DNA of 64,000 nucleotides from Serratia nematodiphila DZ0503SBS1 (GTDB lineage: Bacteria; Pseudomonadota; Gammaproteobacteria; Enterobacterales; Enterobacteriaceae). The notes under the pieces were generated by a model. The model made no database searches and had not been told where the DNA came from. It saw only the letters and a program-made list of their open reading frames with translations. Location of the stretch: NCBI RefSeq assembly GCF_000738675.1, contig NZ_JPUX01000001.1, positions 4,092,001 through 4,156,000 of the forward strand. The letters are read 5' to 3'. The translations under genes and the position numbers were made by a program. Positions 7,448 to 40,170 of the stretch are shown piece after piece (the stretch's first letter is position 1; each line of letters begins with the position of its first letter).

Positions 7448-7537
7448 GGTGAGGTGTCTGAGTGGCTGAAGGAGCACGCCTGGAAAGTGTGTATACGCGA
7501 AAGTGTATCGAGGGTTCGAACCCCTCTCTCACCGCCA
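7448..7537 (+). tRNA. tRNA-Ser(GGA), first copy
   Basis: A 90-nt class II tRNA with encoded CCA (7535-7537). The acceptor stem GGTGAGG/TCTCACC closes with one G-U pair. The anticodon stem CACGC/GTGTG holds loop CTGGAAA with anticodon GGA at 7482-7484, reading UCC and UCU. The variable arm is long and the T loop is TTCGAAC. It differs at a few positions from the second copy at 7910-7999. Its leader has its own promoter. Confidence 0.97.
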
Positions 7538-7548
7538 AATTCAAAGAG

Positions 7549-7579
7549 AAAGCCTGGATTAACGTCCAGGCTTTTTTTG
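7549..7579 (+). terminator. Terminator after the first tRNA-Ser
   Basis: Stem AGCCTGGA/TCCAGGCT with a 6-nt loop and a run of seven T, starting 12 nt past the tRNA CCA. Confidence 0.9.
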
Positions 7580-7594
7580 CATGATGCACCGCCG

Positions 7595-7682
7595 AGAGGG
7601 GTGAGAAGCCTCGACAGGGTTCGACAAAACGCCTGCGTTTTGGACCGCCAACGGCGGCCCGTAGGGTGAGCGCAGCGAATCA
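7595..7682 (+). ncRNA. RtT-like module following the first tRNA-Ser (degenerate single copy)
   Basis: About 90 bp beyond the terminator, closely matching the modules at 8060-8499. It has the CTCGACAGGGTTCGAC block, hairpin CAAAACGC/GCGTTTTG, hairpin CCGCC-AAC-GGCGG and GTGAGCGCAGCGAATC. The copy of the tRNA 3' end that closes the other modules is missing; the sequence diverges at AAGCCCAC. It resembles the repeat-type RNAs downstream of E. coli tyrT (rtT). The family call is from memory of that arrangement. Confidence 0.5.
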
Positions 7683-7841
7683 AGCCCACAGCCCGCGCCC
7701 GTAATTCCCATTTCCACCGGTTATCCACGAACCTTACTTCTGATTTTCCCACCTTTTCATGACTTCTGCCCTGTCGTTCGCCGCAGTTTTCAGCAAAGTG
7801 AACACGGCTTGAGCGGACGAACAAAAACACAGAAATTATTC

Positions 7842-7870
7842 TTGACCGGATCGGCCCCACTCCCTATAGT
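7842..7870 (+). promoter_or_regulatory. Promoter of the second tRNA-Ser gene
   Basis: TTGACC (7842-7847), 17 bp, TATAGT (7865-7870), then a GC-rich discriminator AGCGCCCCG. The mature 5' end lies 40 bp downstream, as for the first copy. Confidence 0.88.
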
Positions 7871-7909: not shown

Positions 7910-7999
7910 GGTGAGGTGTCCGAGTGGCTGAAGGAGCACGCCTGGAAAGTGTGTATACGCGAAAGTGTATCGAGGGTTCGAATCCCTCCCTCACCGCCA
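7910..7999 (+). tRNA. tRNA-Ser(GGA), second copy
   Basis: A 90-nt tRNA with a fully Watson-Crick acceptor stem GGTGAGG/CCTCACC, anticodon GGA (7944-7946), a long variable arm and encoded CCA (7997-7999). Its last 16 nt (CCCTCCCTCACCGCCA) are repeated three more times downstream, ending at 8165, 8332 and 8499. Confidence 0.97.
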
Positions 8000-8010
8000 T
8001 ATTCTACGAA

Positions 8011-8040
8011 GAAGCCTGAACTCACGTTCAGGCTTTTTTG
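8011..8040 (+). terminator. Terminator directly after the second tRNA-Ser
   Basis: Stem AAGCCTGAA/TTCAGGCTT, 6-nt loop, run of six T. Transcription past it into the modules would need readthrough. Confidence 0.88.
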
Positions 8041-8059
8041 TATGCATAGCGCACCGTTC

Positions 8060-8165
8060 GGGAGGGTGAGAATCCTCGACAGGGTTCGACAAAACGCTTG
8101 CGTTTTGGACCGCCAACGGCGACCCGCAGGGTGAGCGCAGCGAATCTATCCCTCCCTCACCGCCA
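8060..8165 (+). ncRNA. RtT-like module, copy 1
   Basis: The 5' GGGTGAG can pair with the closing CTCACC, like a tRNA acceptor stem. Between them are hairpins AATCCT/AGGGTT, CAAAACG-CTTG-CGTTTTG and CCGCC/GGCGA. The module ends in GCCA. The third hairpin loses one pair relative to the other copies. Resemblance to E. coli rtT is by arrangement and motif, not by alignment. Confidence 0.55.
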
Positions 8166-8177
8166 TATTCTAACGAG

Positions 8178-8206
8178 AAAGCCTGAGCGAAAGTTCAGGC
8201 TTTTTT
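8178..8206 (+). terminator. Terminator between module copies 1 and 2
   Basis: Stem AGCCTGA with TTCAGGCT and T6, identical to the next terminator and close to the one at 8011. Confidence 0.85.
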
Positions 8207-8226
8207 GCATGCATAGCGCAACGACC

Positions 8227-8332
8227 GGGAGGGTGAGAACCCTCGACAGGGTTCGACAAAACGCTTGCGTTTTGGACCGCCAACGGCGGCCCGCAGGGTG
8301 AGCGCAGCGAATCAATCCCTCCCTCACCGCCA
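8227..8332 (+). ncRNA. RtT-like module, copy 2
   Basis: Same architecture as copy 1. Stem AACCCT/AGGGTT is fully paired, hairpin CAAAACG-CTTG-CGTTTTG is intact and CCGCC-AAC-GGCGG is complete. It ends in the tRNA-Ser tail CCCTCCCTCACCGCCA. Confidence 0.55.
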
Positions 8333-8344
8333 TATTCTAACGAG

Positions 8345-8373
8345 AAAGCCTGAGCGAAAGTTCAGGCTTTTTT
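8345..8373 (+). terminator. Terminator between module copies 2 and 3
   Basis: Repeat of the 8178 terminator, one period (167 bp) downstream. Confidence 0.85.
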
Positions 8374-8393
8374 GCATGCATAGCGCAACGACC

Positions 8394-8499
8394 GGGAGGG
8401 TGAGAACCCTCGACAGGGTTCGACAAAACGCCCGCGTTTTGGACCGCCAACGGCGGCCCGCAGGGTGAGCGCAGCGAATCTATCCCTCCCTCACCGCCA
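8394..8499 (+). ncRNA. RtT-like module, copy 3
   Basis: Nearly identical to copy 2. The tip of the second hairpin reads CAAAACGC-CC-GCGTTTTG, so sequence changes while the stem is kept. It ends in the tRNA tail at 8499. Confidence 0.55.
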
Positions 8500-8505
8500 T
8501 ACAAA

Positions 8506-8535
8506 AAAGCCCGAACGCAAATTCAGGCTTTTTTT
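8506..8535. terminator. Final terminator of the tRNA-Ser array, shared with sdeR
   Basis: Stem AAGCCCGAA/TTCAGGCTT with one mismatch, T-runs on both strands. It ends the array on the plus strand and can end sdeR (stop at 8551) on the minus strand. Confidence 0.85.
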
Positions 8536-8550
8536 ATCCCCCCCAACCGC

Positions 8551-39618: not shown

Positions 39619-39899
39619 GGTGCGGGATTCTAAATAGAGCGCGTGAATAGCGCCACATCTTTTTCTGTGCTTAACTGTCTCTCTGACGGCGGGCGAAACC
39701 CCAGCGGACAATAAGGCAGCAAGCCGATTTGAACGTTTGCGATTTCTTCCGCAGTTAAGGAAAAGTCACCTTGCTATAACGGCATCAGCAGTGGAATAAT
39801 GCAGTCACTTTCCGCGTTGATTCTCGTTAAACAGGGAAAACGGTGGAATTATAAAATTTGTCTGATCGCGCAAAAACGCAGCAATGGCGTAAGACGTAA

Positions 39900-40170
39900 T
39901 GCGAAATCAAACAATTAGCGGGCTGCGGGTTGCAGCTTGGCCGGCAAATGGAATCAGATCTGTCGACGTAAATCAGAGGCTATTCCCCTAGTAAAAGTGC
40001 TGTCTTTCACAAAGAAAAGCAGGCTTACCGAGATAATGCGCCCCTATGCAGGCGACAACCGTGAGGTTGACGACTTTGCGAGAAGACACGGGGCTTTCGG
40101 TTTAACTCCGGCCATGAGGTTATTTTGCCCGCAGCTTTGTCGATAATGTAAAAATAACGAGTAAGTTAAG
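39900..40170 (+). promoter_or_regulatory. rne 5' leader with RNase E autoregulation element
   Basis: The 552-bp rluC-rne spacer holds no ORF with a ribosome site. Near 39921-39942 the run GGCTGCGGGTTGCAGC, then TTGGCC, matches the structured block in the E. coli rne leader, where RNase E senses its own mRNA. By analogy this leader should mediate feedback control. Boundaries are approximate; promoters upstream of 39900 were not placed. Confidence 0.7.

Follow-up and report, generated by a model that had tools for sequence, protein, structure and literature searches.

The first description of tRNA-linked repeats (TLRs) dates from 1978. Escherichia coli K-12 has 22 TLRs, distributed over ten loci (Rudd 1999, cited in PMC8144298), and according to Stenum et al. 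(2021) each TLR ends with 18–19 bp that repeat without change the 3′ terminus of the tRNA or rRNA lying upstream of it (PMC8144298). That study shows that the rRNA-linked TLRs of E. coli arise by readthrough of the first terminator, that their RNAs are processed to species of ∼173 and 115 nt, the short form having a half-life of ∼2.5 min, and that these RNAs interact with Hfq and CsrA; a CsrA-binding predictor placed the other 19 E. coli TLRs below 0.01, and as of 2021 TLRs were stated to be without known function (PMC8144298). For RtT elements, published reports describe Northern signals for two members in Actinobacillus (PMC4986893), a tandem GA motif (PMC7657543), and a link of RtT-like elements to BIMEs, which are repeated elements 5′ of protein genes in enterobacteria (PMC2965389).

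The tRNA-Ser-linked array

The window analysed here is the whole stretch of 64,000 nucleotides from Serratia nematodiphila DZ0503SBS1 (contig NZ_JPUX01000001.1, positions 4,092,001 to 4,156,000). It contains two tRNA-Ser(GGA) genes, the second of which is the parent of an array of three tandem units:

7448–7537, + strand: first tRNA-Ser(GGA) (ARAGORN; Rfam tRNA 45.0 bits), T-arm/acceptor 3′ end ACCCCTCTCTCACCGCCA
7545–7580, + strand: terminator hairpin behind the first tRNA-Ser, fold −20.4 kcal/mol
7581–7700, + strand: decayed RtT/TLR module without a 3′ tRNA copy, RtT 27.6 bits (cut-off 45)
7842–7870, + strand: promoter-like TTGACC-17-TATAGT, 5′ of the second tRNA-Ser (pattern scan)
7910–7999, + strand: second tRNA-Ser(GGA), array parent (ARAGORN; Rfam 53.9 bits), 3′ end ATCCCTCCCTCACCGCCA
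8005–8042, + strand: terminator hairpin 1, fold −23.7 kcal/mol
8046–8165, + strand: RtT/TLR module 1, RtT 53.9 bits; 106-nt module 8060–8165, 5′ arm 8060–8066, T-arm-like GGGTTCGA 8082–8089, 3′ copy 8148–8165
8172–8209, + strand: terminator hairpin 2, fold −22.7 kcal/mol
8213–8332, + strand: RtT/TLR module 2, RtT 54.6 bits; 106-nt module 8227–8332, 5′ arm 8227–8233, 3′ copy 8315–8332
8339–8376, + strand: terminator hairpin 3, fold −22.7 kcal/mol
8380–8499, + strand: RtT/TLR module 3, RtT 53.1 bits; 106-nt module 8394–8499, 5′ arm 8394–8400, 3′ copy 8482–8499
8500–8537, + strand: final terminator hairpin, weaker, fold −10.9 kcal/mol

The array is an additional member of the known TLR/RtT class. 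In an Rfam covariance search its three modules score 53.1, 53.9 and 54.6 bits, all over the RtT gathering cut-off of 45, and the likeness to RtT pointed out in the first-pass annotation is therefore more than chance; the organisation, which had been compared with that of the E. coli tyrT repeats, likewise fits the tRNA-linked repeat class. The 3′ copies in all three units are ATCCCTCCCTCACCGCCA, 18 nt identical to the end of the second tRNA-Ser, where TLRs have 18–19 nt, and the three + strand units at 8046–8499 lie within the range of one to five per locus behind an RNA gene. Spacings of 166, 167 and 167 bp and a module length of 106 nt agree with the units of 166–167 bp and modules of about 106 bp described earlier, and the tRNA-Ser copy that had been placed in each unit is indeed present in all three, although its length is 18 nt and not 16–17. 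Tandem Repeats Finder gives a period of 167 with 3.1 copies and a 95% match over 7982–8501. Several frames of the array are overlapped by short ORFs. Judging from the sequence, each unit consists of a terminator, an inverted 5′ arm, a sense half of the T-arm (GGGTTCGA), a hairpin core and the 18-nt direct copy.

A fourth module, overlooked in the first-pass annotation, is found behind the first tRNA-Ser; this decayed module stays below the RtT cut-off with 27.6 bits, and its arm, GAGAGGGG, still fits the first tRNA-Ser and not the second. Between the two tRNA-Ser genes there are two differences in the final 18 nt (ACCCCTCTC versus ATCCCTCCC), and the module arms behind them likewise differ at two positions (GAGAGGGG versus GGGAGGG). 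The promoter-like site at 7842–7870 is weak on its own, with one such site seen against 0.7 expected in shuffles. The sRNA sX4 (RF02223) was considered and rejected, with scores of 28.3 and 21.1 bits against a gathering score of 70 and a model that covers a tRNA-Ser-like stretch. Elsewhere in the window, the RNase E 5′ UTR element rne5 is located at 39808–40146 on the + strand (Rfam 337.9 bits).

Terminators and predicted folds

Hairpins with T-runs are present after the second tRNA-Ser and after every copy, consistent with the terminator per unit noted before, and those at 8005–8042, 8172–8209, 8339–8376 and 8500–8537 each have a folding energy below that of all 200 shuffles. Although folding finds these hairpins, a simple terminator scan of the window listed none, possibly because the T-run is paired in the stem.

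The minimum-energy folds of the three modules all have GGGAGGG:CCCUCCC as the closing pair and leave UCACCGCCA unpaired. They contain this pair instead of the acceptor-like stem GGGTGAG:CTCACC that had been proposed for each module, and they do not support the cloverleaf-like layout built upon it. A tRNA-like RNA with a conserved GGGTGAG:CTCACC stem was also rejected in the wider comparison: many modules at tRNAs that lack CTCAC at their end (Tyr, Gln, Pro, Lys) retain the (A/G)TGAG motif without its complement. The z-scores of the window modules are modest (−1.46, −2.45 and −1.97); over 109 modules the mean z against shuffles is −3.45, with 79 of the 109 below −2. When the 3′ copy was swapped for that of another amino acid, the own copy folded better in 92 of 109 modules and failed to do so in 17, the effect being weakest for Pro and Ser.

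Tracking of the host tRNA at the 5′ and 3′ unit ends

A first sample was assembled of 181 non-redundant modules from 66 genomes, with tRNAs for Tyr, Ser, Lys, Pro, Gln, Arg, Glu and Val as hosts; the genomes are related and the counts are not of independent events. At least one copy was found in 141 of 167 fetched loci, the 26 without one by the rule used including contig ends, decayed copies and a tmRNA. The 261 raw copy matches correspond to 190 distinct modules at a spacing of 80–420 bp, from which two antisense artefacts labelled Arg(tcg) and seven modules with a copy not beginning with ATC (five tRNA-Ala, two Ser shifted by ∼1 base) were dropped. The last 18 nt are those of the upstream tRNA in 161 of the 181 modules and show one to three mismatches in 20, an identity that simply describes the sample, as the modules were found through their 3′ copies.

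At the other end, 5′ of the core, every module has a stretch that is antisense to its own tRNA. When this arm was scored for its fit to the terminal 32 nt of tRNAs, the own tRNA surpassed the mean of those for other amino acids in all 109 genome-by-amino-acid sets and in all 181 modules, and it ranked in the top 5% for 127 of the 181. In sequence, the 5′ arm repeats the T-arm and acceptor 3′ strand of the local tRNA in inverted form, and the arm and the direct 3′ copy change together with that tRNA. Examples of such arm and copy pairs are GTCGTGCAGGAT with ATCCTGCACGAC at tRNA-Lys and GGGGAAGGAT with ATCCTTCCCC at tRNA-Tyr, and several Gln arm variants are each matched to their own tRNA end. 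At L363, L220 and L085 the arm is a near-perfect antisense of the whole T-arm and T-loop, instead of the frequent TGAGAA form.

The closing helix was tabulated for the 135 of the 181 modules that could be anchored; they comprise 100 distinct arm/copy pairs. At positions 4–9 of this helix, Watson-Crick pairing amounts to 60, 57, 75, 69, 63 and 43%, against means of 44, 28, 50, 44, 39 and 26% for shuffled arms (n = 500). Each of these values is higher than that of the best shuffle, and every position has three or four types of pair. The anchor, taken as the candidate pairing best with the own copy, favours the own pairing over the shuffles, whereas a one-base deletion shifts the register in Ser modules that carry it, which works the opposite way. 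At positions 10 and 11 pairing is no higher than in the best of the 500 arm shuffles. Lack of covariation in the stems had been named beforehand as evidence against the RtT reading; the closing helix covaries across tRNA types, which does not refute that reading. In a longest-helix test, where, as in the arm-fit test, own and other tRNAs were handled alike, the result is clear for Tyr, where the own tRNA ranks among the top 5% in 35 of 44 modules, and for Gln(TTG) (12 of 13). Such modules are a minority for Lys (15 of 38) and Ser(GGA) (5 of 25), and there are none for Ser(CGA) (0 of 9) and Pro(TGG) (0 of 17). MAFFT and RNAalifold applied to a 60-sequence alignment returned only 5 consensus pairs, perhaps because MAFFT misaligns the hairpins. 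The Rfam RtT alignment already contains the closing stem; its curators had the helix, whether or not the tRNA tracking was noted. No mention of a tRNA-tracking inverted arm or of tmRNA-linked units was found in the available portions of the literature, a weak negative that covers few subscription titles.

Genomes outside the first sample

For out-of-sample comparisons a model was built from 60 sequences comprising the 5′ arm region and the core, without the 3′ copy. Its matches occur in 145 of the 369 class genomes searched, which represent 113 of 272 genera, and in 54 of 249 genomes of a draw from the phylum, 32 of them in one family outside the class. The follow-up comprised 96 loci from 67 genomes outside the model set, the best among the matches listed. 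The 125 matches at these loci represent 122 distinct ones, of which 107 have a same-strand upstream tRNA or tmRNA in the fetched stretch; 8 of the 15 without an upstream RNA are located at contig ends. The 18-nt copy is exact in 54 of the 107 and has at most three mismatches in 66, while tRNAs of other amino acids average 8.1 mismatches to the tail; among the remaining 41 a number have a shortened copy, and in 26 of the 107 rows some tRNA of another amino acid fits the tail at least equally well.

The arm behaves similarly in these new genomes. With an intact copy it is antisense to the own tRNA in 57 of 60 cases, and where the copy is lost or cut it is still so in 21 of 23, which fits the tRNA itself as the partner, or a recent loss of the copy, equally well. 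The positions that separate the two partners are too few, with one favouring the copy alone and none the tRNA alone. Three genomes have a tmRNA as host (L082, L247 and L254); the copied tmRNA 3′ end is complete in one of them and truncated in the other two, and in one further genome a 5S gene, recognised by eye, is the host. In five loci (L199, L216, L220, L319 and L363) the copies start with GGAC and not with ATCC, and no matching arm change was seen in those examined.

A scan of GTDB genomes with a core pattern, in which some genomes overlap or may overlap with the earlier sets, gave 50 matches in 47 stretches. A tRNA lies at most 1 kb upstream in 38 of the 50, and 35 of these 38 have a copy (at most 2 of 16 positions mismatched); the 12 without an upstream tRNA include some at contig ends. 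The records obtained include Thioalkalivibrio, Salinisphaera, Rheinheimera, Sedimenticola, Nevskia, Serratia and Klebsiella.

Distribution, gain and loss

The genome from which the window derives has 11 RtT matches, 8 of them over the cut-off, in clusters at tRNA-Tyr, Pro, Val/Lys (two), Ser, Thr-Tyr-Gly-Thr and Ser-Arg. Ten of the 11 end in a copy of the local tRNA 3′ end, with a single-base change in three cases, and the match in the Thr-Tyr-Gly-Thr cluster is decayed. In addition, tRNA-Phe of the same genome is followed by two units, one taken from the search list of the arm+core model and the other read off the sequence, in which the core is inverted between tRNA-end repeats:

L314 (G000:C1:1716191–1717854), 939–1014, − strand: tRNA-Phe; units at ∼640–930, core in opposite orientation

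Within the genus Serratia, RtT matches occur in 22 of 26 genomes, and the four without are genomes of 1.5–3.6 Mb; at the level of the order the Rfam RtT model has hits in 21 of 119 genomes, and at that of the class in 34 of 185. Serratia cores at tRNAs of different amino acids have a mean identity of 0.657 within and 0.659 between genomes, which lends no support to homogenisation of the cores between tRNA loci within a genome, and cores at tRNAs of the same amino acid are 0.858 identical between genomes, a grouping by tRNA type and not by genome. Outside Serratia, core identity is somewhat higher for pairs from a single genome (0.706, 13 pairs) than for pairs from different genomes (0.590, 921 pairs), a difference that may be due simply to base composition or relatedness. 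In one genome the cores at the Gln and Val tRNAs are 94% identical. Among phage records, 12 matches cover 14–21% of the query, several of them annotated as tRNA-Ser, and none covers 80%. A search of 5,426 E. coli genomes with the Serratia module found only a 43-nt match, in 18 of them, although E. coli does carry such units; the search was too insensitive for counting them.

The comparison of copy number across Serratia that had been suggested was carried out with regular expressions on one locus per genome in 26 genomes, several loci reporting one tRNA-Ser only and some stopping at a contig end; it gives 0–2 units with a copy at the first tRNA-Ser and 0–4 at the second. Two Serratia genomes of more than 5 Mb have no unit at either gene. 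Empty (G001, G022) and filled (G011) sites at the second tRNA-Ser differ by terminator, module and copy, and remnants or truncated modules are kept in G009, G013, G016, G021 and G023. G023 is also an exception to the joint change of arm and tRNA: its first tRNA is changed and the arm is not. Of 11 sampled E. coli tRNA-Ser loci (from ghrA to ycdU or a neighbour), five have 4, 4, 3, 3 and 2 units and six have none; of the empty sites, L369 is clean, L373 keeps a truncated arm and L372 adjoins a tyrosine-recombinase gene. A twelfth E. coli locus, near clpA, has 2 units. In L364, L366, L368 and L375 the annotation marks 1 of 2, 2 of 4, 2 of 4 and 1 of 3 units.

Damaged tRNA copies that pass from the T-arm GGTTCGA into an RtT core were observed at L103, L095 and L182 (first tRNA-Ser), once as a 213-bp tandem triplet, and at L092 the core follows a shorter 5′ fragment of tRNA-Ser.

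Proposed explanation and alternatives

The tRNA-Ser-linked RtT/TLR array of the window probably gives rise to readthrough RNAs in which the arm clamps the copied tRNA end. By analogy with the E. coli relatives, transcription would start at the tRNA-Ser promoter and continue through the imperfect terminators into the units, and the unit tail would be cut like a tRNA tail, by RNase E and 3′ exonucleases. Each unit would fold with its arm clamped on the copied tRNA end over ∼7–12 bp; as proposed here, the copy would thereby be kept from interfering with the genuine tRNA by competition for its 5′ strands. The predicted products are short-lived RNAs of ∼106–167 nt. Recombination between the copies and the tRNA end may add units to an array or remove them, and any benefit to the cell would be weak enough that whole arrays get lost.

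The strongest rival is that the unit is a non-coding, non-autonomous DNA cassette which captures the 3′ ends of tRNA, tmRNA and 5S genes, duplicates the captured end and persists by recombination, with little or no function as RNA. The range of hosts points in this direction, with Asp, tmRNA and 5S in addition to the eight tRNA amino-acid types of the first sample, as do the units missing from some close relatives and the whole-unit losses, some clean (G001/G022 versus G011; E. coli L369) and others leaving remnants (the five Serratia genomes listed above; E. coli L373). Also in its favour are the inverted cores of the two tRNA-Phe copies, the damaged tRNA copies in which the core adjoins the T-arm GGTTCGA without a break (Gln and Ser in G265, Ser in Serratia G006) and the 94% identical cores at the Gln and Val tRNAs of one genome. 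However, the grouping of Serratia cores by tRNA type and not by genome argues for old residence, and structure and matching arms are retained; a mere cassette is regarded as unlikely, if worth serious consideration. The tracking of the tRNA could also be mutational, brought about by recombination and by correction within inverted repeats (quasi-palindromes) and not by selection. Tandem copies are nearly identical and the number of units in an array varies, as such a process would have it, but in many arms the deviating TGAGAA is kept beside tracked positions, where correction is expected to overwrite it, and this explanation is considered improbable. Finally, the arm could regulate its own tRNA by antisense pairing with the T-arm and 3′ end, affecting the folding or the 3′ processing of the precursor. 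The arm matches the own tRNA, in some genomes with the T-loop included, and the match persists when the 3′ copy is lost (21 of 23); against this, the frequent TGAGAA of the arm disrupts pairing with the tRNA T-loop and the arm has a nearer partner within its own module, leaving antisense regulation very doubtful.

Tentatively, and as an idea held at somewhat less than even chances, TLR/RtT could be one widespread repeat class, present in the Gammaproteobacteria and in a family outside them, that resides at CCA-ended RNAs and 5S and has both ends rewritten to the host RNA gene, as a direct 3′ copy and an inverted 5′ copy that clamp a conserved hairpin core as in a split T-loop. If this is true, the elements would be tRNA-end parasites or cofolding partners and not locus-specific small RNAs. 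That both unit ends follow the host tRNA, also beyond the genomes in which the rule was found, is a concrete constraint on the role of TLRs.

Comparison with known systems

The TLRs of E. coli K-12 and the Serratia array have in common the site behind a stable-RNA gene, the 3′ copy of 18–19 nt and the number of one to five units per locus, and they differ in host genus and tRNA locus. In the available portions of PMC8144298 no mention was found, for the E. coli TLRs, of a tRNA-tracking inverted arm, of tmRNA hosts or of a spread beyond Enterobacterales. RrA, RrB and RrF are, as described there, likewise structured RNAs between two terminators that end in a copy of the upstream RNA's 3′ end, but this is the end of 5S, and CsrA binding is reported for them (PMC8144298). 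The Serratia modules score over the gathering cut-off of the model for the rtT RNA of tyrT (RF00391), and the order of parts is equal in the model alignment. The rtT of tyrT carries the end of tRNA-Tyr, whereas the Serratia array has that of tRNA-Ser and a terminator hairpin in every unit. The E. coli tyrT units are not known to have such a hairpin in every unit.

The E. coli array at the tRNA-Ser locus that presumably is serX, placed by the records between ghrA and ycdU, is also located behind a tRNA-Ser and consists of the same kind of units, including the terminators. It is annotated by NCBI as 'RtT sRNA' with the note 'processed from tyrT transcript'. That both unit ends follow the host tRNA suggests that this note is misleading for units at other tRNAs. 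The two tRNA-Ser arrays differ in the sequence that both of their ends follow: the tRNA end, copies and arms have CCCCCCC/GGGGGG at serX and CCCTCCC/GGGAGGG in Serratia.
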